Shown here one piece after another: positions 375-56,003 of a DNA stretch of 63,609 nt; positions within the stretch are counted from its first letter, which is position 1; every line of letters starts with the position of its first letter. The notes below the pieces were generated by a model. It was given only the letters and a program-made list of their open reading frames with translations. It had not been told where the DNA came from and searched no databases. The stretch spans positions 1 to 63,609 of the forward strand of contig JAUNDG010000015.1 in assembly GCA_030526195.1 (NCBI GenBank), in the 5' to 3' direction. The DNA comes from Lachnospiraceae bacterium (GTDB lineage: Bacteria; Bacillota; Clostridia; Lachnospirales; Lachnospiraceae). Position numbers and translations under genes: made by a program.

Positions 375-560
375 GTGACATGCTCCCGCCTCTTACCCTT
401 TCAGGCTTGAAGAGGGGGCTTCTTACTCAATGCCTCTTTTGAGGCAAGTATCAATAAGCTATCCCCGCGTGTCCCGCGGTTCTTTTGCCCGGATACGGGC
501 ATTTATTATTCTTGTGGTCCGGATACAGATTTTTTATGCGATGCCGAGGAGACGTTTGCC
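375..560 (-). ncRNA. Putative omega RNA (TnpB guide RNA) at the right end
   Basis: In IS605-type elements the RNA that guides TnpB spans the tnpB 3' end and the right end, and its guide is the adjacent flanking DNA. Here, downstream of tnpB, the minus strand shows several hairpins: CCGTATCCGGGCAAA-type, CCGCGGGACACGCGG, GCCTC-AAAA-GAGGC, and a long stem pairing CCCCCTCTTCAAG with GTAAGAGGCGGG. The element appears to end in GTCAC at 375. The guide would then start TTAACAAGAAGGCGGG (374 downward). The 5' end is not determined. Confidence 0.5.
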
Positions 561-1658
561 TTCCTCCCGGATATTTATGGCCGCATTCAGATCACGATCC
601 ATTCGATTGCCACAACAACAGATATAGGTACGTTCTGATAATGTCAGCTCAGCTTTTATCTTTCCACATCTGCTGCAGGTCTTGCTTGAGGGGTAGAATC
701 TATCGATCTTGATAAAGATTTTTCCTTTTCTCTCAAGCTTATACTCCAGTTTTTCAATAAAGGCGCCGAAACCGTTGTCCATGACACTTTTCCCGAAATG
801 AAGGCCTCCGCTCATCCCTTTCATATTGAGATTTTCGACAACGATCACATCATATTCTTCTGTCAGTCTATGACTCAGTTTATGCTGGAAATCATTGCGC
901 TGATGCCGGATTTTTTCATGAGCCCGGGCCAGTTTCTGTCTCTGTTTTCTATAGTTTTGGCTGCCTTTCTGGCAGTGACTGAGTTTTCTCTGTTCCCGGG
1001 CCAGCTTTTTCTGAGTTGTTCGGTAATACATGGGATAAGCTGCACTTGTGCCATCTGAAAATACTGCTAGTTCTTTCATCGAAAAGTCTATCCCCAATAC
1101 CTTTTTATCCCTTATTTCTGATGTTTGGTTTTCGCATCGCTCACGGGCATAAAGGAGAGCGGCATAATACTTCCCTGATGGTTCTCTGCTGACAGTAACT
1201 GACTTAAGTATCCAATCCGCATCGATACGGCGATGGACCTTCAGTCTTATCTTACCGATCTTCGGAAGGCGCAGGTGACTACCTTCTAATCGAATATTTC
1301 CTTTGATGACGTTCGTGGTATAGGCATCACGTGATCTGTGCTTTGACTTGAACTTCGGAAAGCCGATCCTCGGATCTCTGAAAAAATTACGATAGGCCTG
1401 CTCCAGATGAAGCTGTGCATTTGAGAGCGCAAGCGCATCCACTTCCTTCAGCCAGGGATAGTCTTTCTTATATTTTGCCGGTGTGTTCCGCAGGCTTTTT
1501 CCTGTCTCCTGATAATAGGCGATCTTTTCCGCCAGCATCATGTTATAGACAAACCGCACACAGCCAAAGCACCGGGCGAAATAGTTTCTCTGTTCATTAT
1601 TCGGATAGAGACGATACCGCCTCACAGTATTTTCGATAGCGTTTCTTTTTTCTGCCAT
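534..1658 (-). CDS. tnpB: TnpB, RNA-guided nuclease of IS605 (OrfB family)
   Basis: This 374-residue protein has the TnpB layout: an N-terminal OrfB helix-turn-helix segment (about 1-50), a RuvC-like nuclease split into VLGIDFS (D near 190), VVENLNM (E near 273) and MDRDLNAAINI (D near 355), and a zinc ribbon (CSRCG then CCCG) before the last motif. All three acidic residues are present, so it should be active. TnpB proteins are Cas12 ancestors that cut DNA at a TAM under guidance of the RNA from the right end. The start ATG overlaps the tnpA 3' end by 62 bp, implying coupled expression. Confidence 0.95.
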   Translation of the reverse strand: MAEKRNAIENTVRRYRLYPNNEQRNYFARCFGCVRFVYNMMLAEKIAYYQETGKSLRNTPAKYKKDYPWLKEVDALALSNAQLHLEQAYRNFFRDPRIGFPKFKSKHRSRDAYTTNVIKGNIRLEGSHLRLPKIGKIRLKVHRRIDADWILKSVTVSREPSGKYYAALLYARERCENQTSEIRDKKVLGIDFSMKELAVFSDGTSAAYPMYYRTTQKKLAREQRKLSHCQKGSQNYRKQRQKLARAHEKIRHQRNDFQHKLSHRLTEEYDVIVVENLNMKGMSGGLHFGKSVMDNGFGAFIEKLEYKLERKGKIFIKIDRFYPSSKTCSRCGKIKAELTLSERTYICCCGNRMDRDLNAAINIREEGKRLLGIA

Positions 1659-2058
1659 CTTCTTCCCCCTGAGTCTCTATGTACTGCCGAATCACATCGA
1701 TCGTTGCACCTCCTGTTGTCAGAAGACAGTAACTCTGACTCCAGAAGGCTTCGTTCCATAGTTTTTCTTTTATCTCAGGGTATTCTTTTTTTATCAGACG
1801 ACTGCTGGCGCTTTTATACGCATTGATAAACTTTGAGATCTCAGTCTGGGACTTTGCCCGAAACATCACGTGAACATGATCGATATCGTGATTCCATTCT
1901 TCAAGAACGACACCAAAGGGTTCTCCTATCTTGATGAATAATGATCGTGCTCTTTCTGAGATAGCCTCATCGATAACCTTCCGACGATACTTCACAACCA
2001 TGATAAGATGGTAGTACAAAAGATATACCGAATGTTGATTTCTGTCCAGTTTATCCAT
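1597..2058 (-). CDS. tnpA: TnpA, Y1 HUH transposase of IS200/IS605
   Basis: The 153-residue protein is a single-strand DNA transposase. The HUH metal motif is visible as HVHVMF (near residue 60), preceded by HDID, and the catalytic tyrosine lies in VIRQYIETQ (near residue 127). The length is normal for the family. It sits behind a strong AGGAGG site and a TATAAT promoter inside the left end. It moves the element as single-stranded circles at replication forks. Confidence 0.95.
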   Translation of the reverse strand: MDKLDRNQHSVYLLYYHLIMVVKYRRKVIDEAISERARSLFIKIGEPFGVVLEEWNHDIDHVHVMFRAKSQTEISKFINAYKSASSRLIKKEYPEIKEKLWNEAFWSQSYCLLTTGGATIDVIRQYIETQGEEDGRKKKRYRKYCEAVSSLSE

Positions 2059-5697: not shown

Positions 5698-6795
5698 TTA
5701 TACCTCCTTGATCAGGATGTCGGGACGTTTGATGGTCTTGCCGTCGATGGTCACATCACGGTAAACCCAGGTGCCTGTGTAGGACACGATATCCTGTGTG
5801 TCAGCCTTGATCACATAGGTATCTTCCAGCTTGACGCCGGCAATGGTCGGGTTCCAGGAGAAGCCCTGATGTTCCATCACAACATCCGTATGACGCGGTG
5901 TGGTGCAGTAATCGCGGCAGAAGTAACCCAGCGCACCACCCTGATGATGCAGATGATAATCCGCTTCATAACCGGCAGCATCGTAAGCGGCATAGCCTTT
6001 AGCCAGAACCTCGCGGGCTTCCACACCCGGCAGTGTGTTCAGGATGTAAGTGCTGTCGATCTTCAGCAGTGCTTCATATTTAGCCTTGATCTCATCGGAC
6101 AGCGGACCGAAGCTGACAATACGGCTGATGGAAATGGTGAGGCCGTATTTCTGAGCGCAGATGGCGATCATAGCGCATTTTTCGATTTTTTTATCGGTGG
6201 GCAACGGATGACGGTATTTCAGAAGACGTTCATCGGAAGCCACCAGCATAACCGGTACAGCAAAGCCGGCTGCCACCAGACGACCGGCACAACGACCGGC
6301 AGCCTGCATTTCTGTTTCACCCGGCATGATGTCGCGGACTGAATCCTCCAGGATCTGAGCCGCCACCGGACCGATCTCAGCCATGCGAGCCTCTTCTGCC
6401 GGTGTTAAGACATAGCGCAGCGGGTTGATCAGAGCTTCGATATTGCGTGTGCCGTAGCACCCCTGATCAGAGCCGACACGGGAAAGATCCACATACTGTT
6501 TCACAACTTCAGCCTCATCTTCATGCCATTTGAATCCGATGAGTTCGAATGTACCGTCTGTGAGTTCCTCATCAAACACACGATACATTTCACTGGAATT
6601 GCAGATGGCATAAGCCTTATCCTTTGTGATCATGATCTTGGCAGCGGCATCACCTGTGGAACGGTCGACCATGTCGCCCTTACCGCCTGTGATCCAGTAG
6701 AAGTTATGCACACGGCCAAGGATCACAGCATCCAGATCCTCTTTAGCCATTAAATCTCTTACGCGTCCGAATTTTACTTTTAATTCTTCCGTCAT
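5698..6795 (-). CDS. M24 (pita-bread) family protein, probably non-metallo
   Basis: The protein has 365 residues: an N-terminal creatinase/prolidase-like domain (about 1-130) and a C-terminal pita-bread domain. The usual first two metal ligands (GxxxxGYxSDxTR context) are not evident: the segment reads AICAQKYGLTISISRIVSFG, with no Asp. The His of HHQGGALGY and an acidic residue in GVKLEDTYVI remain. Loss of metal ligands with retention of the His is reminiscent of creatinase, which cleaves C-N bonds without metal. It starts 4 bases inside the kinase stop (ATGA-type coupling). The substrate is unknown; peptide hydrolysis is unlikely. Confidence 0.75.
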   Translation of the reverse strand: MTEELKVKFGRVRDLMAKEDLDAVILGRVHNFYWITGGKGDMVDRSTGDAAAKIMITKDKAYAICNSSEMYRVFDEELTDGTFELIGFKWHEDEAEVVKQYVDLSRVGSDQGCYGTRNIEALINPLRYVLTPAEEARMAEIGPVAAQILEDSVRDIMPGETEMQAAGRCAGRLVAAGFAVPVMLVASDERLLKYRHPLPTDKKIEKCAMIAICAQKYGLTISISRIVSFGPLSDEIKAKYEALLKIDSTYILNTLPGVEAREVLAKGYAAYDAAGYEADYHLHHQGGALGYFCRDYCTTPRHTDVVMEHQGFSWNPTIAGVKLEDTYVIKADTQDIVSYTGTWVYRDVTIDGKTIKRPDILIKEV

Positions 6796-8279
6796 GTCAG
6801 TGAACCCTCCTTAACAAGCTTGCAAAACTGTTTATAGACGTCATCCCACAGCGCCTTGTCCTTCGGTTCGAAGTGCTTAATGTCGAATGACTCTGCAATG
6901 ATCCGGCGGCCTTCCTTAAGGTCGGCAATCTCACCGGCAGTGCGCATCTGAAGGACGATGTTGCCCACCAGGGCAGCTTCTGAAGGGCCGGCATGAACCG
7001 GGATCCCGCAGGCATCGGCCGTCAGCTGATCGAGAAGCAGGTTCTGACCGCCGCCGCCCACGATATAGATATCGGTCAGCTTATAGCCCACTGTTTCTTC
7101 GATCTGTTCATAGGTGTAACGATATTTCATGGCGAGGCTTTCCAGCACGCCGCGAATGATCTCGCCGAAAGTCTCCGGCACATACTGACCGGTACGGCGA
7201 CAATAGTCCTGAATCTTCCGAATCATATCACCCGGCATATAGAAGACATTGTCATCCGGGTCGATCATGAACTGATGACCCTTGGCCTCAGCTGACATCT
7301 GATTCATTTCATCAAAGCTCAAAGCCTTGTTGTACTTCACCTGATAATCCGCCAGACATTCCTGGATGATCCACAGGCCCATGACATTTTTAATCATGCG
7401 GTAGCGATGATCCACGCCACCTTCATAGGCAATATTCTTTTCAAAGGTATCATGAGTGATAATAGGCTCCGGCACCTCTGTGCCCACGATAGACCAGGTC
7501 CCGCTGCTGATAAAGCCCACATGTTCTTTTTCGGTGGGGATGGCCACAACAGCGGCAGCGGAATCATGTTCCGTGACAGCCACCACCTTGATCTTCCCCT
7601 CCGGATCCCGGCTCACAATGCCGGGCTTCAGATTGCCGATCACGGTACCAGTGGGAACCACGTCCGGGAAAATGTTTTCCGGGATTTCGAGACGTCTTAA
7701 GATATCGTAGGCCCATTCCTGCTTTTTGTAATCATAAAGCTGTGAAACGGAAGCCATGGTGTATTCCGTCACCATTTTCCCTGTCAGGAAATAAGCCAGT
7801 GTATCCGGCAGCATCATAGCTGCCTTGGCATGGTCCAACAGGAATTTATCCCCTTCGAAGGCCATGGACGCCATTTCCATGGATGTGTTGAAAAGTGCGG
7901 TCTGAGCGCAGGTTGTGCTGTAAAGCTCCTCGGCTGAGACACGACTGTAAATCTCGTCGGCATGGCGAGCTGTCCGCTCATCGCGATAGCAGCGCACCTG
8001 ATTTAAAAGACGGCCGTCCGGACCGATCAGCCCAAAATCGTTGCAGTAGGCGTCCATCCCGATGCTGGCCAGCTCGTCAGAGCTGTCCTTCAAGGATTCC
8101 TCAATGCCTGTGAGCAGGTTTCGATAAATGCTGATAATGTCCCAGTACAGGCCGCCACAAATGTCAATCTGTCTGTTGAGGAAGCGATGAACAACTTTTG
8201 TTTTCAGGATGCCGTTTTCCAGCTTGCCTTCCATCATTTTGCCGCTGCTGGCACCCAGGTCAAAACCAAGATATTTCAT
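6792..8279 (-). CDS. Rhamnulokinase-like FGGY-family carbohydrate kinase
   Basis: The 495-residue protein has both ASKHA halves. The start FDLGASSGKMMEG resembles RhaB, and GMDAYCNDFGL, DERTARHADEIY, TEHDSAAAVVAIP, SSGTWSIVGTE and the C-terminal VGGGGQNLLLDQLTAD are the ATP- and sugar-binding signatures. It would phosphorylate a keto sugar imported by the upstream transporter, feeding the aldolase and epimerase encoded downstream. The L-rhamnulose assignment is by similarity only; rhamnose isomerase is absent from the window. Confidence 0.85.
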   Translation of the reverse strand: MKYLGFDLGASSGKMMEGKLENGILKTKVVHRFLNRQIDICGGLYWDIISIYRNLLTGIEESLKDSSDELASIGMDAYCNDFGLIGPDGRLLNQVRCYRDERTARHADEIYSRVSAEELYSTTCAQTALFNTSMEMASMAFEGDKFLLDHAKAAMMLPDTLAYFLTGKMVTEYTMASVSQLYDYKKQEWAYDILRRLEIPENIFPDVVPTGTVIGNLKPGIVSRDPEGKIKVVAVTEHDSAAAVVAIPTEKEHVGFISSGTWSIVGTEVPEPIITHDTFEKNIAYEGGVDHRYRMIKNVMGLWIIQECLADYQVKYNKALSFDEMNQMSAEAKGHQFMIDPDDNVFYMPGDMIRKIQDYCRRTGQYVPETFGEIIRGVLESLAMKYRYTYEQIEETVGYKLTDIYIVGGGGQNLLLDQLTADACGIPVHAGPSEAALVGNIVLQMRTAGEIADLKEGRRIIAESFDIKHFEPKDKALWDDVYKQFCKLVKEGSLT

Positions 8280-20803: not shown

Positions 20804-22174
20804 TTATTTCTTTTTATGCGGAATGCACTTCACAACAATAGCTGTCAGGGCAAACAGGGCGATGGCGTTGGGGATAACCATCAGCTGGTTGAACATATCG
20901 GACAGTTCCCAGACAAGGTCGCTGGCTGTCAGTGTGCCCAGGAAGATGAAGACCAGGGCGATCACGGTGTAAACCACGGCGCTCTTCTTGCCGAAGAGAT
21001 ACTGCATGTTGATCTTGCCGAACAGGTTCCAGCTCAGGATGGTGGAGAAGGCAAAGAAGAACAGACAGATGGCCACGAAAATGGCACCGAAGTTGCTGCC
21101 CATAACAGAACCGAAAGCATTCTGGGCCAGGTTGGCTTTGTTGATGCTGTCCGGGATCACGCCGTTAGCCAGCACACCGTCAGAGGTGTACATAGTGGAA
21201 ATGATGACCAGAGCGTTCAGTGTCAGAACGATAAAGGTGTCGATGAACACACCGGCCATAGCCACAATACCCTGTTCATGGGGTGTTTCAACGTGAGCCA
21301 GCGCATGAGCATGCGGTGTGGAACCCATACCGGCTTCGTTTGAGAAAAGACCTCTCTTGGCACCCTGGCTCAGAGCTGTCTTCAGCGCGTAACCGATACC
21401 ACCACCGATGATGGCCTGCGGCTGGAAAGCATAACGGAAGATCATGGCGAATGTTGCCGGGATGTACTTGATCCGGATGATGAGCACGATAAGAGCACCA
21501 ACCAGGAAAATGCAGGCCATGATCGGCACGACCTTTTCAGTAACAGAAGCCAGACGCTTGACGCCGCCCAGGAAAACAGCACCGCAGATGAGCACCATAG
21601 CGATACCGATGACCCATGTGGGAATACCGAAGGCTGTGCTGGCTGTGGAAGCAATAGAGTTTGACTGCACCATGCAGCCGAAGAAACCAAGTGCCAGGAT
21701 AATGGCGACAGCAAAGAAACGAGCCAGGCCCTTACCGAAGGCGCCCTTGAAGGCTGTGGTGATGTAGTAGACCGGACCACCCTGAATGCTGCCGTCTTCA
21801 CTCACCTGACGTGTTTCCTGAGCCAGTGTGGCTTCAGCGTAAATGGTAGCCATACCAAAGAAGGCGATGACCCACATCCAGAAAATGGCACCCGGGCCGC
21901 CGGTGAGGATCGCACCGCTGGCGCCGACGATGTTGCCGGTACCGACCTGAGCCGCGATGGCTGTGGCCAGAGCCTGGAAGGATGTCATCCCGCCGTCATG
22001 CTTTTTACCGGAAAGATGAATGCTGCCGAAGGTCTTCTTCATGGAAGCCCCGAAGTAACGAACCTGCACAAAACGTGTCTTGAAGGTGTACCAAAGACCC
22101 ACGCCCAGCAGCAGGACGATCAGGACGTAGTCAGACAGGTACGCATTGATGGTTTGTACAATTTGCAATAACAT
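20804..22174 (-). CDS. Sodium:alanine/glycine symporter (AGCS family)
   Basis: The 456-residue protein with about eleven helices carries AGCS signatures: SFQALATAIAAQVGTGNIVG near residue 65, FWMWVIAFFGMATIYAEATLAQ, and SNEAGMGSTPHAHALAH near residue 280. It imports glycine or alanine with sodium across the inner membrane. The leader contains a glycine-riboswitch aptamer and an intrinsic terminator, which indicates that glycine, rather than alanine alone, is the regulated substrate. It is convergent with the M20 gene. Confidence 0.92.
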   Translation of the reverse strand: MLLQIVQTINAYLSDYVLIVLLLGVGLWYTFKTRFVQVRYFGASMKKTFGSIHLSGKKHDGGMTSFQALATAIAAQVGTGNIVGASGAILTGGPGAIFWMWVIAFFGMATIYAEATLAQETRQVSEDGSIQGGPVYYITTAFKGAFGKGLARFFAVAIILALGFFGCMVQSNSIASTASTAFGIPTWVIGIAMVLICGAVFLGGVKRLASVTEKVVPIMACIFLVGALIVLIIRIKYIPATFAMIFRYAFQPQAIIGGGIGYALKTALSQGAKRGLFSNEAGMGSTPHAHALAHVETPHEQGIVAMAGVFIDTFIVLTLNALVIISTMYTSDGVLANGVIPDSINKANLAQNAFGSVMGSNFGAIFVAICLFFFAFSTILSWNLFGKINMQYLFGKKSAVVYTVIALVFIFLGTLTASDLVWELSDMFNQLMVIPNAIALFALTAIVVKCIPHKKK

Positions 22175-22266: not shown

Positions 22267-22276
22267 TGGTTTTCAG

Positions 22277-22356
22277 CCTTGTTCTTTTGCCTGAGAGATT
22301 CGGCACACATCTGCACCTTACACCGTCGGCACTCAATTTAATGAGATTCTCCAAAG
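22277..22356 (-). promoter_or_regulatory. Glycine riboswitch aptamer
   Basis: The minus strand shows the aptamer from GGAGAATCTCATT (near 22352) through GTGCCGACGGTGTAAGG to the conserved ATCTCTCAGGCAAAAGAAC near 22284. A degenerate segment upstream (GTATCC ... GGATAT, about 22360-22410) may be a ghost or first aptamer. It controls the AGCS symporter through the downstream terminator. In other species glycine riboswitches act as ON switches for cleavage-system genes and sometimes as OFF switches for transporters. Confidence 0.88.
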
Positions 22357-22562
22357 CGCCCTCCATATCCGGTTTCAGCGGCCATCGTCTTCAGCCAAGC
22401 CGATTCTGGATACTTCTTCGGGATTCAGTTGTACATTCGTTACAGTATCACAGAATTCAATACTTTACAAGATAAAAGTGACCGGAAACGAAGCATTTTC
22501 TTTCGAATCTCGCTTCGCTCCGGTCAATTATATTTTTGAAAATGAAGTGGCATGTGCCCGTC

Positions 22563-48545: not shown

Positions 48546-49718
48546 TCAGATGTACTGCGCTTTGTACCCATCATAGGAGTCCATGGCCGCCTTCAGATCG
48601 GCGATAAGATCCTCCGCTGACTCAAGACCGACAGACATCCGCAGCACGCAGTCCGTGATGCCGTTGGCGATGCGCTCCTCTTCCGGCACATCCGCGTGGG
48701 TCTGTGTACAGGGATAGGTGAGCAGGGTCTCAACACCGCCGAGACTTTCCGCGAAGGGAATCAGCTTGGTATATTTCAGGATATGTTTGGCCAGCGGCGC
48801 ACTTTCCACCTCAAAGGTCAGCATAGAACCAAAGCCTCGGGCCTGACGTTTACAGATTTCATAACCGCCGGACCCCGGAATGCCGGGGTAATAGACGTTC
48901 TTGACCTTCGGCTCCGCCTGCAGGAACTTCACGATGGCCATGGCATTTTCCTGAGCCCGTTCCATACGGACCGAAAGCGTCTTAATACCTCTGAGCACCA
49001 GCCAGCTGTCGAAGGGCGCCAGCCCGGACCCAACGGTCTTGATGATATAACGCAGCTGATCGGAGATATCCTGTCGGTTAGTGACAAGGAATCCTGCAAT
49101 GGTGTCATTATGCCCACCCAGGAATTTCGTGCCGCTGTGCACCACAATGTCAGCCCCAAGATCCAGCGGATTCTGGAAATAGGGGGACAAAAATGTGTTA
49201 TCGACGATCAGCAGCAGGTTGTGCTTTTTAGCCAGTGCCGCCACCTTCGCAATGTCGATCACCCGCATCATGGGGTTGGTCGGGGTTTCGATATAAAGGG
49301 CTTTGGTATTGTCCCTGATGAGGGACTCGATGGAGGCCTTGCCCCAGTCAATACGTGTAAACGCGATACCATTTTTGGCACTGATGGCATCAAACAAACG
49401 AATGCTGCCACCGTAAAGGTCCGCATCCGTGATGATGTGATCGCCGGGCTTGAACATCTCCATCATAGCCGCGATGGCCGCCATGCCACTGGAAAAGGCA
49501 AGGGCATCAAGGCCATTTTCCAAAGAAGCCACCACCTTCTCCAGCTGCTGACGTGTCGGATTCTGTAACCGGGAATAGTCAAAACCGGTGCTCTGTCCCA
49601 CCTCCGGATGGGCGTAGGTGGCGGACTGATAGATCGGGTAGCTGATCGCACCATAGTGATGGTCGTCAGCCACCTCATTTTCTAAATGCAAACATTTTGT
49701 TTCAATATCTAACCCCAT
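48546..49718 (-). CDS. Cystathionine gamma-synthase/gamma-lyase family PLP enzyme
   Basis: The 390-residue protein has the Cys/Met-metabolism PLP fold: FDYSRLQNPTR, SSGMAAI, YIETPTNPMM, VDNTF and the PLP lysine in VVHSGTKFLGGHND. Synthase versus lyase cannot be settled from sequence alone. The N-terminus reads CLHLENEVADDHHYGAIS where relatives usually have a glycine-rich IHGG segment; the odd LENE is encoded by a palindrome copy (49676). It lies with the CysK fusion on the same strand, consistent with transsulfuration. Confidence 0.88.
   Translation of the reverse strand: MGLDIETKCLHLENEVADDHHYGAISYPIYQSATYAHPEVGQSTGFDYSRLQNPTRQQLEKVVASLENGLDALAFSSGMAAIAAMMEMFKPGDHIITDADLYGGSIRLFDAISAKNGIAFTRIDWGKASIESLIRDNTKALYIETPTNPMMRVIDIAKVAALAKKHNLLLIVDNTFLSPYFQNPLDLGADIVVHSGTKFLGGHNDTIAGFLVTNRQDISDQLRYIIKTVGSGLAPFDSWLVLRGIKTLSVRMERAQENAMAIVKFLQAEPKVKNVYYPGIPGSGGYEICKRQARGFGSMLTFEVESAPLAKHILKYTKLIPFAESLGGVETLLTYPCTQTHADVPEEERIANGITDCVLRMSVGLESAEDLIADLKAAMDSYDGYKAQYI
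49676..49688. repeat. Palindrome copy CATTT-TCT-AAATG in the PLP enzyme gene
   Basis: It is in frame and encodes LENE at residues 12-15 of the protein, again producing an ENE peptide. Confidence 0.55.
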
Positions 49719-49769: not shown

Positions 49770-50783
49770 TTATTTCAACAAATATGCTTTAATATCCTGC
49801 AAAAATGATTCTGTCTGGTAAGCCTTCAGCTTAGCCAATGTATCCGGATTGGCGATAGCCCGGCCCGGTGTCATGTATTCCACATAAGCCATGGCGCACC
49901 AGGTGATACCGCGCAGACAGGTGACCGGCAAGAAGACCTTCACCCGTTCCTCGAGATTGCCCAGGCGGATCCTGTCATCTACAAAACTCCGATAATCCCG
50001 CACAAAGGCCTCCACCGTTTCTTCCTTTAAAATGATGTCCGTCCGCCAGAAGCTGGTTGTCGGCGCCAGCATATGACCGAGGTCCTGAGCCGGATCGCCC
50101 CAAAGGGGTTTCTCCCAGTCGATCAGAGACACGAAACCCGTTTTCTCGTTCACCAGAAAATTATGATTGTTTAATTCCGTGTTGATGCAGACATTCTGAT
50201 AGTCCAACGCCTTCATTTCATCGGCTTTCTGATAGGCAAGACCCATCAGTTCCTCGATCATGGCCACCTTGCGGGGGTCGGCTACGGCGGATTGCTTATA
50301 GACAGCAAACATCTGCTCGCATTCCTCCAGAATGCCCTTGATCGGATTCCCGATTTCAATGAGCGATTCCGGTGAAGAGATCGGTGTGCTGTGCACATCG
50401 GCCAGACAGGCTGCCGCCCGGAAAAGATCCCGCTCATAATCAAGGGGGCGGCCCTCAATAAAGGCCATCACCAGGATCCCGTGGCCGTCAACAGCGCCGC
50501 TGTTATCCACAAAAACCGGGACCGGCGTTCTGCCGCTGAATTTGAGCATGTCAAGAGCCTTGTATTCATAACCAATCTGGTTATCGAGATGCATCTGGCT
50601 GCCGTAGTTCACCCGAAGCACGTATTTTTTTTCGGTAATCGGGTGTGCGAACACAAAATTCCGATGATACTCACCCTGAGCCAACGGCACGAATGTCACA
50701 GGCGCCTCGGCAGGTATGTCCAGCGCTTTCTTAAACTCAGGGCTTTCGCTGTAGGCCGTAATTGTCTTTAATAACTGTTCCAT
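49770..50783 (-). CDS. APH/choline-kinase-fold phosphotransferase
   Basis: The protein is 337 residues from the ATG after a leader hairpin; a GTG seven codons earlier is possible. It shows a kinase N-lobe (KKYVLRVNYGSQ), ILVMAFIEGRPLDYE hinge, and a catalytic loop INTELNNHNFLV followed by SLIDWEKPLWGDPAQDLGHM. The usual catalytic HxD is changed to NTE, while the metal-binding Asn and Asp remain. The substrate is unknown. It lies between the PLP enzyme gene and the CysK fusion gene, and another APH-fold protein is in the divergent arm. Confidence 0.8.
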   Translation of the reverse strand: MEQLLKTITAYSESPEFKKALDIPAEAPVTFVPLAQGEYHRNFVFAHPITEKKYVLRVNYGSQMHLDNQIGYEYKALDMLKFSGRTPVPVFVDNSGAVDGHGILVMAFIEGRPLDYERDLFRAAACLADVHSTPISSPESLIEIGNPIKGILEECEQMFAVYKQSAVADPRKVAMIEELMGLAYQKADEMKALDYQNVCINTELNNHNFLVNEKTGFVSLIDWEKPLWGDPAQDLGHMLAPTTSFWRTDIILKEETVEAFVRDYRSFVDDRIRLGNLEERVKVFLPVTCLRGITWCAMAYVEYMTPGRAIANPDTLAKLKAYQTESFLQDIKAYLLK

Positions 50784-50794
50784 ATCATATTCTG

Positions 50795-50828
50795 AAAGCC
50801 CCACAAGTTCTGACCTGTGAGGCTTTTT
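50795..50828. terminator. Hairpin between the CysK fusion and kinase genes
   Basis: AAGCCCCACA and TGTGAGGCTT pair with one wobble. The T-run lies on the plus side, so on the minus transcript it may act as an intercistronic stem rather than a terminator. Confidence 0.5.
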
Positions 50829-50840
50829 GATTTTTATTCT

Positions 50841-52331
50841 TTAGATTCTGATCTTATTGGGATTATTGATGTATTTTTTCTTTTCCTCAAGCTGCTTGCC
50901 ACCGTTTTCCGGTAAGTATTCAAGAAGCTCTCTCTGAATAATATCATCAATAATTTCCGATGCATGCTTAACCAGCTGTTCGCAGCAAAGTTTGTGCTCC
51001 GCGGAGTTCCATTCCACCTTGCTGGTCAGAGCGCGGCAGCACAGAGCCTTATGGGCCTGGCGGAACTTGTCATGCAGTTCATTAACAACCGTAAATGAGA
51101 CTCTTTCAGACTCATAGTTATGAGTACGGCCGCAAATGAGACTCAGCACCATGGCGGCACCGGTCACAGCACCGCAAGAACAGCCGGATTCACCCAGACC
51201 GGAACCAAAGGCCGTGGCGATCTTGTACTGTTCCTCCGGGAATCCAAGATTGTAAGCCTCATTAAAGCCACGGAGAATAGCCTCGCTGCAGTATAAACCG
51301 TTCTGGAAATAGCGCAGTGACAGCGCCACAGATTTCGGCAGGTCTGTATCCAGTGTTTCCAGAATCTGCTGATTGAGCTTATTGGTGCCCTGATCCAGAT
51401 TCTTGGCAAAATCTTCATAGAGCCATGTGGACAGATATCGTTCACCGCTGTCCGGCAGAACGGTCACGATGGTCTTGCCGGCATTTTCCGGCCGTTTGGC
51501 CAGTTCAATGGCAGCCCAGACATTGGCGGCACCGGAAATACCGGTCAGAATACCTTCATTTTCTGCCATCAGGTGCGCATACTTGCTGGCATCCTCATCG
51601 ATGACGCAGAGGATCTCATCCACGATATCCTGGTTCAGGACATCCGGGATAAAGCCGGCGCCGATACCCTGAATCCGATGGGGATAGGCCTGCTTACCTG
51701 AGAGAACGGCTGATTTAAAGGGTTCTACAGCCACCACCTGTGTCTCTTTATTATGAGCCTTTAACACCTCGCCGATACCGGTTAAGGTACCGCCGGTCCC
51801 GACACCGGCCACGAAGATGTCAACCTTGCCGTCTGTATCACGAAGAATTTCCGGGCCGGTTGTCTTACGATGAGCCTCGGCATTAGCGGCATTTGAGAAC
51901 TGATCCGGGATCCAGGAACCCGGAATTTCCTTATTTAACTCCTTAGCCTTTTCAACGGAGCCAACCATGCTGGAATAAGCTTCGGTCAGGACGATCTCAG
52001 CACCCAGAGCACTTAAGATCATACGACGCTCGACACTCATGGTCTCCGGCATTGTCAGGATCAGACGATAACCCTTCACCGCACAGGCAAAGGCCAGACC
52101 GATACCGGTATTACCGCTGGTGGGTTCAATGATGGTGGCACCGGGTTTGATGATGCCCTGACGTTCGGCTTCTTCAAGCATGGCCACACCGACGCGATCT
52201 TTAACAGAAGACATCGGATTGAAATACTCCAGTTTGACCAAAACCTCAGCGTCATACGGATTTGTTTTCTTACTTAAACGAACCATCGGTGTATTACCGA
52301 TCAGTTCAACAACATTGTTTGCAACATTCAT
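50841..52331 (-). CDS. cysK: Cysteine synthase fused to a C_GCAxxG_C_C redox domain
   Basis: The protein is 496 residues from the ATG behind GAGAGGGG. Residues 1 to about 310 are cysteine synthase A: ELIGNTPMVRL, PLP lysine in SSVKDRVG, PTSGNTGIGL and VGTGGTLTG; they make cysteine from O-acetylserine and sulfide. The remaining 180 residues are an extra C_GCAxxG_C_C domain: YCSEAILRGF, GCSCGAVTGAAMVLSL, LCCRAL and LCCEQL. This domain family is thought to be redox-active and is not part of normal CysK (about 310 residues). It may deliver or sense sulfur. Confidence 0.92.
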   Translation of the reverse strand: MNVANNVVELIGNTPMVRLSKKTNPYDAEVLVKLEYFNPMSSVKDRVGVAMLEEAERQGIIKPGATIIEPTSGNTGIGLAFACAVKGYRLILTMPETMSVERRMILSALGAEIVLTEAYSSMVGSVEKAKELNKEIPGSWIPDQFSNAANAEAHRKTTGPEILRDTDGKVDIFVAGVGTGGTLTGIGEVLKAHNKETQVVAVEPFKSAVLSGKQAYPHRIQGIGAGFIPDVLNQDIVDEILCVIDEDASKYAHLMAENEGILTGISGAANVWAAIELAKRPENAGKTIVTVLPDSGERYLSTWLYEDFAKNLDQGTNKLNQQILETLDTDLPKSVALSLRYFQNGLYCSEAILRGFNEAYNLGFPEEQYKIATAFGSGLGESGCSCGAVTGAAMVLSLICGRTHNYESERVSFTVVNELHDKFRQAHKALCCRALTSKVEWNSAEHKLCCEQLVKHASEIIDDIIQRELLEYLPENGGKQLEEKKKYINNPNKIRI

Positions 52332-52359
52332 AACGGTTCCCCTCTCATTTAACTCTATT

Positions 52360-52434
52360 TCCAACCGGGTTTAACTCTATTCCCTACTGGGTTAGTATGC
52401 TATTAACAATACTCACTCTTGGCGTTCCTGTCAA
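52360..52434 (-). promoter_or_regulatory. cysK promoter with operator-like repeats
   Basis: On the minus strand TTGACA (52434-52429) and TATTGT (52411-52406) are 17 bp apart. Just past the expected start site lies TAACCCAGTAGGG (about 52395-52382), then a weaker copy AAACCCGGTTGG (52371-52360). The first matches the element beside the divergent promoter. Confidence 0.8.
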
Positions 52435-52502
52435 TGTTGATTTTTTACAAATTCCCACTTGCATGGTCGGCATTATTTGGTGATTATTCACCCTCAAATC
52501 AT

Positions 52503-52559
52503 TTGACTTCGCACCTGACAGGGTGTATACTGCGTCCATAACCCACTTACCCAGTAGGT
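52503..52559 (+). promoter_or_regulatory. Promoter and operator of the free C_GCAxxG_C_C gene
   Basis: TTGACT (52503-52508) and TATACT (52526-52531) are 17 bp apart. ACCCAGTAGGT (52549-52559) lies about 12-20 bases after the expected start, the same position relative to transcription as ACCCAGTAGGG in the cysK leader. A repressor, possibly of the Rrf2/CymR type, is inferred. Confidence 0.78.
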
Positions 52560-52638
52560 ATACGGATTTAAAACCCGTGAAACACTATTATTCATATCTG
52601 TTCACTTATAACATTTTTATTTGAAGGAGAAAAAAGAA

Positions 52639-53103
52639 ATGGCTCACGAACACTTAACAGTTAACAAGGAACTTGTGGATTCCGCTGCCGCCCAGTTTGG
52701 CGAAGGTCTTCACTGCTCACAGATCGTCTTCGGCTATGCCGCCAAGAAGCTGGGCTTTGATGAAGTCGCTGCCAAGAAGATCGCCGATGCCTTCGGTGGC
52801 GGTATGTTTAACGGCGAACGCTGCGGCAGCCTGACAGGCGCTATGATGGCTCTTTCTCTGGCTTTTGGTCACTACAATGCTGAAACAAAACCGGACGAAG
52901 CCAAGCTTCATGAAAAGAGAATTGAAATCGAAAAGAGATTTAAAGAAGCCTTCGGTTCTCTTTACTGCCAGGATATCATCGGCGCCAACATCGGCACACC
53001 GGAAGGTATGGCTCGCTTCAAAGCCGAAAACCTGGCTAAGGATTGCCCGGTTCTGGTCGCTTATGTTATCGAACAGCTTGATGAACTGCTGGAATTAGAC
53101 TAA
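52639..53103 (+). CDS. C_GCAxxG_C_C family redox protein
   Basis: The protein is 154 residues from the ATG nine bases after AAGGAG. The pattern cysteines are visible: LHCSQI, ERCGSLTGAMMALSLAF, SLYCQDI and KDCPVLV. The same domain is the C-terminal half of the CysK fusion across the divergent promoter. The family is described as probable redox proteins with no defined reaction. It is followed three bases later by an APH-fold kinase gene. Confidence 0.88.
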   Translation: MAHEHLTVNKELVDSAAAQFGEGLHCSQIVFGYAAKKLGFDEVAAKKIADAFGGGMFNGERCGSLTGAMMALSLAFGHYNAETKPDEAKLHEKRIEIEKRFKEAFGSLYCQDIIGANIGTPEGMARFKAENLAKDCPVLVAYVIEQLDELLELD

Positions 53104-53106
53104 AGC

Positions 53107-53856
53107 ATGCTATTTAAGGGACGTTGTAATTTCACAGAATTAGACGCACAGACAGGCCAACATGTTATACGGAAGCATTTTTCGGAAAAGCTTCTAACGT
53201 ATGATGTGCTTTGGCCTGTTTCCCGTGCCGATGTGGAAGCTTTTGTTCTTAATAAAACAGAAGCCTTGGCTGATGGCAATCCCCATTTTCATCAGCCCCA
53301 TGTGATCGACTTTGACAAAACGCAGCACACGTTGACGCTGACCTATATCCCGGCAGAGCCCCTCTCCGTTCTCTGCTGTGAAAAGGCTCCGGCAAACACC
53401 GGTGTTGGTCTGCCCTCTGTCCATCAGTTGACAGAGCTCCTCCGATTTCTGCATCGGATCAATCACCTGCCTTATGACAGTTTTTCTGCTGACGAAAAAC
53501 GGCTGCTGGATCAACAGCTTGAGATTGTGCAGTGCATGTACCACAACAAAATGAAGGATATCTGCCGGCCGTTGACCGGGGCGCCCTGGTATTTCTGTCT
53601 GGGTGATGTGAGCCTCAACAACATCTTATTTGACGGCGATTGCTTTACACTGCTTGATTTTGAGTGTGCGCATATGGGGTATGCCGGCTACGACATCGGC
53701 CAGCTGCTGGGCATGGCCCGCGTATCGGACAGCCTTCTGGCTGAGCGACTCATACAGGCTTTAAAAACAGCTGTGCCGGATGAAGCCGAACGAGCCCTCA
53801 TCCTGATATGGGCTGACCGGTTTGAGCAGTATTATGCTGCGGAGGGTGCTTCATAA
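53107..53856 (+). CDS. APH/choline-kinase-fold phosphotransferase
   Basis: The 249-residue protein has a short N-lobe and a clear catalytic segment: CLGDVSLNNILFDGD, then LLDFECAHMGYAGYDIGQLLG, corresponding to the GDxxxxN and DxE motifs of aminoglycoside and choline kinases. It is shorter than typical members (about 300-350). It is co-transcribed with the C_GCAxxG_C_C gene, mirroring the kinase beside the CysK fusion. A small-molecule kinase in sulfur metabolism is inferred; resistance is not supported. Confidence 0.78.
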   Translation: MLFKGRCNFTELDAQTGQHVIRKHFSEKLLTYDVLWPVSRADVEAFVLNKTEALADGNPHFHQPHVIDFDKTQHTLTLTYIPAEPLSVLCCEKAPANTGVGLPSVHQLTELLRFLHRINHLPYDSFSADEKRLLDQQLEIVQCMYHNKMKDICRPLTGAPWYFCLGDVSLNNILFDGDCFTLLDFECAHMGYAGYDIGQLLGMARVSDSLLAERLIQALKTAVPDEAERALILIWADRFEQYYAAEGAS

Positions 53857-53985: not shown

Positions 53986-54268
53986 GAACCGCAGCTACCT
54001 TCGGTAGCCCATCAGCAGGGGCTTTTACCCCTGCTGATGCAAGCTTCCCCCGTAACCCCCGCTTAAGACTCTACGTCTTTGAAGCGGGGGAATGCTTGCT
54101 GCAGTTCATATTACTTGCGCTTTCTTCCGGGTTCATCATACATATAATACTTTTCTCCGCCACAAAATATCAAACACAAATAAAATTTCAACCAACAGGT
54201 TGACTAATTATTCGTTTTGTGATACAAATTCTATAGACCATTGTGGTTTCAAAGAAGGAGGAATGCAT
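53932..54268. other. Intergenic junction between core genes and the AT-rich island
   Basis: It is 337 bp with no gene. It has two hairpins: ATCAGCAGGGG...CCCCTGCTGAT (54011-54038) and CCCCCGCTT...AAGCGGGGG (54056-54091), the latter with the GAAGCGGGGGAAT word of IS605-like ends. Composition becomes AT-rich after about 54110. It may mark the left boundary of a transferred segment. Confidence 0.55.
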
Positions 54269-54631
54269 ATGTTGACAAGTATTGGTCGATTCTTACGTAA
54301 ATTAAGAATCGACGAAAGAGAAATCTTAAAAGACATGGCTGAAAAATTGGAAGTAACCATTTCATTTCTTTCGGCCGTAGAAAATGGAAAGAAGCACATG
54401 CCTGCAGCATGGAACAGCCGTATATGTGAGCTCTATCAATTAACAGAAGAACAGCGAAAAGCTTTTACCACGGCAATCGCTGAAACAGAGGACGCAATAG
54501 AGATGAATTTTATCGGCCAAAGCCTACAAAATCGTGAATTGGCTGTTTCTTTTGCAAGAAAGTTCTCAGAGATTAACGATGAACAGGCCGAAGCGATTAA
54601 AAATATACTATCAGGAGATAAAGAACAATAA
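54269..54631 (+). CDS. XRE-family helix-turn-helix protein (ImmR-like)
   Basis: The protein is 120 residues from the second of two nearby ATGs (AAGGAGG seven bases upstream). It has an N-terminal helix-turn-helix (SIGRFLRKLRIDEREILKDM, LEVTISFLSAVENGKK) and an acidic helical C-terminus. It overlaps the ImmA/IrrE gene start by one base, the classic ImmR-ImmA pairing of conjugative elements and prophages, where the regulator is cleaved by the protease on damage or mating signals. Confidence 0.82.
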   Translation: MLTSIGRFLRKLRIDEREILKDMAEKLEVTISFLSAVENGKKHMPAAWNSRICELYQLTEEQRKAFTTAIAETEDAIEMNFIGQSLQNRELAVSFARKFSEINDEQAEAIKNILSGDKEQ

Positions 54632-55149
54632 TGAATCGTTACAAAGCTGATGCCGTTTCCAGAAATGAGATTCGAAGATTTATTCATACTCTTAAGAAAA
54701 AGGTCGGGCTAGAGAATAAACTCTATTTTCCAATTCTTCCTTTTGTAGAGAATATCCTTCCAATCCTCATTCCTGATTTTCAATTTGAAGTTGCCCCCTC
54801 CATCGAAATGGGAAATAAGCACGGCGAAACATATCCCAGCAAAAATTTAATCCGGATCCGAGAGGATGTCTATCTCCGTGCTGCTGTTGGTGAAGGGCGC
54901 GATCGACTCACAATCGCACATGAAGTAGGCCATCTATTCATGCATGAGGATGACAGCATCGCATTATGCAGATTGGCGCCTACCGAAAAACTAAAACCCT
55001 ACGAAGATCCCGAATGGCAAGCTGATGCTTTCGGAGGCGAACTCCTTGCATCGTCTTACCTAATAAAAGGAATGAACCCGCTTGCTATATCTATCAACTG
55101 CGGAGTGTCTATCTCTGCTGCACGGGTTCAGCTTCGGTCTCTTCGTTAA
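54631..55149 (+). CDS. ImmA/IrrE-family metallo-endopeptidase
   Basis: The 172-residue protein has the zinc motif HEVGHLFMHEDD (HExxH near residue 95) and the downstream WQADAFGGELLA segment with the third ligand glutamate. It is expected to cleave the adjacent XRE regulator. Base composition is lower in GC than the flanking core genes. Confidence 0.88.
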   Translation: MNRYKADAVSRNEIRRFIHTLKKKVGLENKLYFPILPFVENILPILIPDFQFEVAPSIEMGNKHGETYPSKNLIRIREDVYLRAAVGEGRDRLTIAHEVGHLFMHEDDSIALCRLAPTEKLKPYEDPEWQADAFGGELLASSYLIKGMNPLAISINCGVSISAARVQLRSLR

Positions 55150-55159
55150 TTTTAAGGAG

Positions 55160-55295
55160 GTGATGTCCTATGAATGTAAAAAAATAAAACGCGTTGGAAA
55201 ACTGTTACCAGCAGCTTTTCAACACGTTTCATTCCTCGGAAGTGCTATTGCAAAACCAAGTGTCATTACCTGAAATAATAGCACTTCCTCGTAAC
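55160..55295 (+). ncRNA. Possible structured RNA with two hairpins
   Basis: After AAGGAGG and a five-codon frame (MNVKK, near 55170) comes a hairpin AAACGCGTTGG.../...CAACACGTTTC (about 55187-55230) and a second perfect stem GGAAGTGCTATT (55238-55249) with AATAGCACTTCC (55277-55288). No longer gene is present. It could be a small RNA or an attenuator; promoter and function are not visible. Confidence 0.35.
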
Positions 55296-55379
55296 TTCAT
55301 CTATTGGCATTTTGAATAAAAAGCACAATAGCAAACAAATTATTGGCTCGTCAGCCATAAAGTTTACGAGGTGATTATT

Positions 55380-56003
55380 ATGACGAGTAAAGAAATGCGT
55401 GAAGATCCTCTCTTCATGCGAAACAATTTTAATCCCGTTGGGAAATGGGGCTTCGCGCTTATCCAGAAACAGGACATTGATCTTAGCAATATATCTCTTA
55501 TTGCCTCTTCAAACACAAGAGCAAATGATACTCCAAAGAACAGATGTAACGGTGTACATCATTATGTAGATGATTATCGATTCAATGGAGTCTATGACCA
55601 CCCTGACCGCAGCCTTTCCAGATACTCACAATATCGTTTTCTTATTTCCCCTGAGTACTCTACTTATGCAGACATGGACTTATGGAGACAAATAGAAAGT
55701 ACCGGCAAAAATCGTTGGGTAGGCGCCTACTGGCAAGACAAAGGGCTCAAGGTTGTTCCCGCAGTCTGCTGGAGTACCCCTAGGAGCTATGATTTCTGTT
55801 TCGATGCAATAGAAACCGGCTGTATTGTTGCAGTTGGCATGATTGAATGTAAAACGAGCAAGAAACTCTTTCTCCATGGATATGATGCAATGCTCGAAAG
55901 AATCCAGCCTTCTGCAATCATCGTTCTCGGCACTCCTTTCGCTGAAATGAGAGGAAATATCATTCCTGTTAAATACAGTTTCAATGGTAGAGGAGGATGT
56001 TAA
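55380..56003 (+). CDS. DUF4417 domain-containing protein
   Basis: The protein is 207 residues from the ATG six bases after GAGGTG. Features are NNFNPVGKWGFALI near the start, HHYVDDYRF, SRYSQYRFLISPEYSTYADM and FLHGYDAMLERI near the end. The DUF4417 family is common on phages and plasmids and in conjugative elements of Firmicutes; no function is established. It belongs to the AT-rich island with the next two genes. Confidence 0.82.
   Translation: MTSKEMREDPLFMRNNFNPVGKWGFALIQKQDIDLSNISLIASSNTRANDTPKNRCNGVHHYVDDYRFNGVYDHPDRSLSRYSQYRFLISPEYSTYADMDLWRQIESTGKNRWVGAYWQDKGLKVVPAVCWSTPRSYDFCFDAIETGCIVAVGMIECKTSKKLFLHGYDAMLERIQPSAIIVLGTPFAEMRGNIIPVKYSFNGRGGC

Follow-up and report, generated by a model that had tools for sequence, protein, structure and literature searches.

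One of the closest described counterparts of the locus reported here is the cysteine regulon of Firmicutes; one source describes how CymR regulates cysK, ssu and mccAB of B. subtilis and how its motif resembles that of IscR (PMC3828012). A second point of reference is the C_GCAxxG_C_C family, whose members two other sources list among putative redox-active proteins, some forms being selenoproteins (PMC13188914, PMC9312934). We analysed a stretch of 63,609 nucleotides (hereafter, the window) from contig JAUNDG010000015.1 of Lachnospiraceae bacterium assembly GCA_030526195.1, which carries on two divergent arms a cysteine synthase (CysK) fused to a C_GCAxxG_C_C domain, a free C_GCAxxG_C_C protein, and two small-molecule kinases of the APH fold, designated KIN1 and KIN2. 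This four-gene module, present in a small number of anaerobic bacteria, seems to handle sulfur in a manner not described before, and no published account of the CysK-C_GCAxxG fusion was found in the open-access literature.

The first-pass annotation of the window had proposed these four genes and their arrangement, and all of them lie where it had placed them, every gene exceeding its Pfam cut-off, and the CysK part and the free C_GCAxxG_C_C protein exceeding NCBIfam ones as well (Table 1). The left arm, on the minus strand, runs from the fusion to KIN1 and then to a Cys/Met-metabolism enzyme dependent on pyridoxal phosphate (PLP), while the right arm, on the plus strand, runs from the free C_GCAxxG_C_C protein to KIN2. 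The PLP enzyme, located 51 bp beyond KIN1, is a fifth gene and corrects the four-gene description; each of the 25 NCBIfam matches displayed for it is under its cut-off.

The four-gene arrangement, whose lack of conservation would have refuted the first-pass proposal, is conserved, since all four genes recur in two further genomes and remnants are present in one congener. A profile of KIN1 and its relatives, compared with GTDB species genomes, yielded 210 confirmed loci, from which the best 80 were kept (L134-L213). The complete module is found in two of these 80, namely in the uncultured Clostridiales RUG067 (L134) and RUG12926 (L186), both uncultured genomes and, judging by the RUG names, presumably from the rumen. 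In both, a single strand carries first the fusion, then KIN1, then the free C_GCAxxG protein and last KIN2, instead of the divergon seen in the window. Compared with the window, the fusion is 82% identical over its full length, KIN1 55-56%, the free C_GCAxxG protein 70% (L134) and 65% (L186), and KIN2 36-41%; a homologue of the PLP enzyme, 51% identical, lies near the module of L186 (16814-17935). The three KIN1 proteins from complete modules form a single group in a quick tree, with a Shimodaira-Hasegawa-like approximate likelihood ratio test (SH-aLRT) value of 100.

Of the 42 genomes in the window genus, the window's own is the only one with the full set. The congener G018 retains, at locus L133, a fusion tail (59% identical over aa 419-496) with an adjacent KIN1 (44% identical, and without firm placement in the quick tree), a free-type C_GCAxxG fragment on the opposite strand and, at the contig end, the start of a cystathionine-type gene that is 46% identical to our PLP enzyme. 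In this locus (1-1204), the fusion and free-type tails are head to head and both lack their N-terminal parts, which reflects either a deletion or an assembly artefact. In the L186 family (296 genomes), KIN2 is restricted to the two genomes that carry L134 and L186, and in the window genus (42 genomes) to the window's own; the KIN2 profile was built from the three module sequences, which favours recovering them and does not alone explain its absence elsewhere. The fusion is somewhat more widespread and was found, with its domains confirmed, in at least 5 of those 296 genomes (L134, L186, L234, L235 and L236), a count that excludes eight matches in frames of ~350-750 aa (G441, G513, G533, G624, G648, G720, G721 and G726). 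Of the seven loci that have either a fusion or a fusion tail, three (L186, L133 and L235) also have transport genes resembling SsuA or SsuC, all under the curated cut-offs. A KIN1 match was obtained in 12 of 392 genomes, four of them only at E values of 1e-4 to 9e-4, and the seven strong KIN1 genomes besides our own were all followed up; in the family of the window, one genome shares its KIN1 locus with Acetivibrio ethanolgignens (L091, L164). In L134, a gene resembling by eye thiC, for hydroxymethylpyrimidine phosphate synthase, lies ~100 bp past KIN2 (6179-7507, plus strand), and no thiamine pyrophosphate riboswitch was found there.

The CysK part has its motifs intact. The motifs SxKDR, with the PLP lysine, TSGNTG, GTGGT and QGIGAGF are present in all six complete fusions, across which the six Cys of the C-terminal domain are also invariant. 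In the AlphaFold2 model of the fusion, the C_GCAxxG domain is helical and the linker at about aa 300-325 has low confidence, so the segment joining both parts is probably flexible; a fold search with this model returned a list filled by CysK-like chains. The same genome encodes a CysE (220.5 bits against a cut-off of 210.65) whose C-terminal residue is Ile, a residue of recognised significance in this enzyme. O-acetylserine should therefore be available, and CysK does not depend on a kinase for its substrate. Since a stand-alone cysK is also encoded, together with an O-acetylhomoserine (OAH) sulfhydrylase, the fusion is an additional and probably regulated enzyme. The first-pass statement that the locus is not explained by known cysteine biosynthesis was thus too strong, considering the presence of CysE, the intact CysK motifs and a regulation that resembles sulfur control of the Rrf2 type.

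The C_GCAxxG_C_C domain is common in these anaerobes: 44 of 61 whole genomes, ours included, have a match, and each of the 61 has from zero to three such genes. Other fusions are informative as to its role. In L129 (6368-7900, minus strand) and L131 (6795-8123, plus strand), the domain stands ahead of a NIR_SIR part similar to sulfite/nitrite reductases; a sirohaem-synthase-like gene adjoins the former, while the latter has a TusA-like gene 2 kb away and, nearby, an AIR-synthase-like gene that resembles SelD by eye. In L130 (8325-9953, plus strand) and L132 (8777-10477), the domain is fused to a DUF362 protein; the third C_GCAxxG gene of our own genome lies beside a gene that, by eye, resembles a DUF362 protein. 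The fusion to a sulfite-reductase-like protein elsewhere favours a role in sulfur metabolism, and since one fusion partner of the domain probably produces sulfide and another consumes it, the simplest role for the domain is the handling of sulfide or persulfide, which provides an assayable guess for its function. The sulfur carrier suggested in the first-pass annotation is, judged from these sequences, plausible, and a role as electron donor or iron-sulfur sensor is possible. No significant relative of the domain was found among solved structures, the split-Soret cytochrome c, reportedly a protein with a novel iron centre, appearing only at E values of 0.28 and 0.48.

The two arms of the locus had been described as a symmetric divergon in which redox domain and kinase are duplicated. 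The symmetry holds for the layout, each arm combining a thiol domain with a kinase; it does not hold as a sign of recent duplication. A recent copying of the arms was considered and ruled out, because KIN1 and KIN2 share 14% identity (35% probability), the fused and free C_GCAxxG proteins are 32% identical in their best local alignment, and the fused and the free protein fall into separate, strongly supported groups in a quick tree of C_GCAxxG proteins. To judge from their sequences, the arms are alike in plan and not through recent copying.

The 307-bp intergenic region contains two outward sigma-70 promoters, which remain predictions since the promoter scan returned 8 sites against 6.3 in shuffled sequences, and two 21-nt arms in inverted orientation, 81% complementary. 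The proposal that both promoters carry a common operator-like motif is borne out by the pattern WACCCAGTAGG, whose only two exact copies in the whole genome (2.54 Mb) lie at the two promoters of the locus; likewise, TAACCCAGTAGGGA and TTACCCAGTAGGTA are the only two places of the window that match the motif without mismatch. Allowing up to one mismatch, this pattern is not over-represented in the genome (26 matches, while its reverse gives 73), and with up to three mismatches the motif occurs 11 times in the window against 6.73 in shuffled sequences, 7 of 100 of which reach 11. Both sites overlap a dyad of the form RCCYAYTN5ARTRGGY (with two mismatches at the left one), whose only two exact occurrences in the genome are the right dyad of Table 1 and a site at C29:8411-8429, upstream of a nifS-nifU-Rrf2 operon that is divergent from the stand-alone cysK and the OAH sulfhydrylase gene. 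These two dyads lie 9 nt (window) and 7 nt (nifS) past a -10 box, the second box having been read by eye. The reversed pattern was matched 58 times in the genome against 7 for the dyad, and the remaining five, each with one mismatch, comprise three inside long open reading frames (ORFs), one between long frames under a doubtful 71-aa frame (L249) and one beside another Rrf2-type gene identified by eye (L246). Near the module of L186, the -10 box of an SsuABC-type operon is, by eye, directly followed by a copy of the dyad that has one mismatch. The Rrf2 protein of our genome scores 126.7 bits against 73.3 for the superfamily. The dyad common to the promoters of the locus and of the nifS-nifU-Rrf2 operon suggests sulfur control of the Rrf2 type, and the module is probably governed by an Rrf2-family repressor through this putative operator. 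Control by a riboswitch or T-box was considered and rejected, as none of seven related loci reached an Rfam gathering score. The only such match of the window lies far from the locus and is a glycine riboswitch aptamer (22269-22364, minus strand, 54.2 bits) that precedes an ORF (20804-22174, minus strand) similar by eye to sodium:amino-acid symporters.

Table 1. Position, strand and supporting evidence of the features of the CysK-C_GCAxxG_C_C locus, in window coordinates.
Feature	Position	Strand	Evidence or remark
Cys/Met-metabolism PLP enzyme (cystathionine gamma-lyase/synthase type)	48546-49718	-	PF01053, 475 bits; last gene of left arm
KIN1, APH-fold small-molecule kinase	49770-50804	-	PF01636, 54.2 bits (cut-off 23.2)
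CysK-C_GCAxxG_C_C fusion, 496 aa	50841-52331	-	TIGR01139, 432.6 bits (cut-off 350.95); PF09719
Fused C_GCAxxG_C_C domain, aa 347-464	50940-51293	-	PF09719, 93.4 bits (cut-off 27); AlphaFold2 model
Two tandem 22-bp repeats, 86% alike	52348-52391	-	Between left promoter and fusion gene; promoter-side copy overlaps TAACCCAGTAGGGA
Operator-like motif TAACCCAGTAGGGA, left	52381-52394	-	Just downstream of predicted -10 box
Left operator-like dyad	52382-52400	-	Two mismatches to RCCYAYTN5ARTRGGY
Predicted left promoter, TTGACA-17-TATTGT	52406-52434	-	Promoter scan
Predicted right promoter, TTGACT-17-TATACT	52503-52531	+	Promoter scan
Right operator-like dyad, ACCCACT-n5-AGTAGGT	52541-52559	+	Exact match to RCCYAYTN5ARTRGGY
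Operator-like motif TTACCCAGTAGGTA, right	52547-52560	+	Just downstream of predicted -10 box
Free C_GCAxxG_C_C protein, 154 aa	52639-53103	+	PF09719, 88 bits (cut-off 27); TIGR01909 above cut-off
KIN2, second APH-fold kinase, 249 aa	53107-53856	+	PF01636, 42.3 bits (cut-off 23.2)

APH phosphotransferases have their catalytic Asp in an HxDxxxxN motif. In KIN1 its place is taken by Glu (E204) in all 40 rows of our alignment A5, which were chosen among the KIN1 sequences found, while D223 is kept; in 3i0o and 7s3l, the residue aligned with E204 is the Asp. KIN2 retains the catalytic Asp, with LGDxSLNN invariant in its three sequences (D167, N172). The module also connects a kinase family in which Glu replaces the catalytic Asp to a C_GCAxxG protein. 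The AlphaFold2 model of KIN1, with a mean predicted local distance difference test (pLDDT) of 91.5, is close in fold to APH, choline, homoserine and N-acetylhexosamine kinases. An attempt to derive its substrate from the fold was abandoned, as many kinases fall within a few Z units; methylthioribose kinase, which also has the APH fold, is absent among the 50 rows listed.

Outside the module, the KIN1 family belongs to a recurrent clostridial cluster with transferases similar to TIGR04282 and TIGR04283, DedA proteins, an Fe-S protein, a rhodanese, a nucleoside hydrolase and often a C_GCAxxG protein. Genes of the TIGR04282 or TIGR04283 kind are present in 68 of the best 80 KIN1 loci, and nucleoside-hydrolase-like genes in 32 of the 88 scanned; one cluster also has ArsS (TIGR04167, 439 bits against 300) and an ArsM-like methyltransferase under its cut-offs. 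C_GCAxxG genes occur in 23 of the best 80 loci (1.38 Mb in total, compared with zero to three such genes in each of the 61 whole genomes), seven of them directly adjoining KIN1 on the same strand, which indicates that the partnership between KIN1 and C_GCAxxG exists outside cysteine synthesis too. The nucleoside-hydrolase-like and sugar-transferase-like neighbours point weakly to a sugar-type substrate. The examined flanks of L134 and L186 have no TIGR04282 or TIGR04283 gene, and none of the five window genes matches either family among those listed.

We tentatively favour, at somewhat less than even confidence, a module for regulated sulfur assimilation in which C_GCAxxG is the sulfur-handling partner of CysK. 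An Rrf2-family repressor of the CymR/IscR kind would probably shut the module off when sulfur, or the supply of Fe-S clusters, suffices. The C_GCAxxG domains would hold sulfide or persulfide, alone or on an iron centre, and pass it to the active site of CysK; with O-acetylserine coming from CysE, the enzyme could then function even when little free sulfide is present. We hold such a handover to be plausible, at less than even confidence. Upstream of this, the kinases may use a small hydroxylated substrate, for which a sulfur compound derived from a sugar or nucleoside is the likeliest candidate, with phosphorylation serving as the activation or trapping that frees sulfur for the module, a step that we consider rather doubtful. 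A bolder version seems to us unlikely: C_GCAxxG_C_C would be an unrecognised class of sulfide or persulfide carrier, and the module a pathway that joins carrier sulfur and a kinase-activated metabolite on a CysK of altered specificity. If true, one carrier would serve sulfide-making (sulfite-reductase-like) and sulfide-using (CysK) enzymes, either fused or paired with them.

Several results weigh against the assimilation module that we favour. The CysK of the module trio reads GISGAAN where, by alignment count, the other 12 CysK of our alignment A6 (36 chosen rows) read GI[ST][SA]GA, and an altered specificity is therefore possible. Three of the six complete fusions (L234, L235 and L236) have neither KIN1 nor KIN2 in the stretch examined, the contig of L234 stopping ~550 bp past the fusion, which implies that the fusion does not require them. 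Conversely, 78 of the best 80 KIN1 loci have no CysK in the examined flank, and no assigned function for C_GCAxxG_C_C was found in the open-access literature. As for regulation, RCCYAYTN5ARTRGGY was written post hoc, after seeing the promoter of the isc-type operon beside the stand-alone cysK of our genome, and with up to two mismatches it occurs at 5 places of the window against 5.08 in shuffled sequences. The Rrf2 protein scores under the equivalog cut-offs of both IscR (106 against 207.55 bits) and CymR (93.2 against 195). Finally, the window operator motif is absent from the fusion promoters of L134 and L186, which have another dyad with like half-sites, ACCTATT-n13-WATAGGK, a pattern derived from these very sites; at three mismatches or fewer it occurs 4 times in L134 against 2.0 in shuffled sequences (30 of 200 reach 4) and 6 times in L186 against 1.7 (1 of 100 reaches 6).

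Among the alternatives, the one that survives best is the salvage of a thio-sugar, in which KIN1 would phosphorylate a pentose-type compound, as the APH-fold methylthioribose kinase does, and the product would release a thiol or sulfide fixed by CysK and the cystathionine-type enzyme. The neighbours of the KIN1 family described above speak for it, as do the cluster with ArsS and the ArsM-like methyltransferase, where a ribose derivative is expected, and the presence of N-acetylhexosamine 1-kinase in the KIN1 fold list. However, fold comparison does not separate substrates, and a nucleoside hydrolase is missing, like relatives of TIGR04282 and TIGR04283, from the examined flanks of L134 and L186; we regard this salvage as improbable. 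Lower still in our estimate is a route through a phosphorylated acceptor, in which KIN1 or KIN2 would phosphorylate serine or homoserine, and O-phosphoserine or O-phosphohomoserine would take the place of the acetyl ester as substrate of CysK or of the cystathionine-type enzyme. The APH-type fold of both kinases would permit it, but the genome has a CysE above its cut-off that ends in Ile, the CysK part is classed by its score as a cysteine synthase A and contains QGIGAGF, and neither kinase has an NCBIfam homoserine-kinase match at E 0.001.

A response to metalloid or redox stress, with C_GCAxxG and KIN1 taking part in arsenic- or selenium-type chemistry and the fused CysK supplying cysteine or trapping a toxic species, is very unlikely. 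It is suggested by the KIN1 family member in an arsenosugar-type cluster (L095), by the frequency of C_GCAxxG among the KIN1 loci and by the SelD-like and TusA-like genes near the C_GCAxxG fusion of L131, but no arsenic or selenium gene was seen by eye beside the module in L134 or L186, and the operator-like dyad is shared with a cysteine desulfurase operon, not with a metalloid operon. Just as improbable is a chance association of a CysK fusion with unrelated kinases that have no joint function, as the full set in a single genome of the genus and the three fusions without kinases might suggest, because the four genes occur in two arrangements in three genomes, KIN2 is confined to these among the genomes searched, and identities ranging from those of the fusion to those of KIN2 indicate long co-existence and not one recent joint transfer.

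Beyond the five genes, the window has, just past the right arm (54266-56000), a helix-turn-helix gene and an ImmA/IrrE-type peptidase gene with weak matches to capH and capP, followed by a DUF4417 protein. A role of the module in anti-phage defence was discarded, as PADLOC gave no match for any of the four genes. At the other end of the window (534-2058), two minus-strand ORFs resemble by eye an IS200/IS605 pair of TnpB and TnpA.

Compared with known systems, the fusion has in common with cysteine synthase A (CysK, TIGR01139) a score above the cut-off and the characteristic motifs, and differs from it by an extra C-terminal part of ~185 residues and, in the module trio, by GISGAAN in place of the GISSGAA found near the cofactor. 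Both C_GCAxxG_C_C proteins of the locus exceed the cut-offs of their family (PF09719/TIGR01909), the fusion to CysK being what sets the locus apart. The clostridial TIGR04282/TIGR04283 ("arsenosugar") clusters share with the module the KIN1 family and often C_GCAxxG; unlike the module, they include glycosyltransferases, DedA proteins and rhodanese, and have no CysK or KIN2 in the examined flanks. With the CymR/IscR cysteine regulon of Firmicutes, the module shares cysK, a cystathionine-type gene and an operator-like dyad of the Rrf2 type, together with ssu-like transport genes matched in L186 and L133, and to these it adds a C_GCAxxG domain on CysK, two kinases and a free C_GCAxxG protein.

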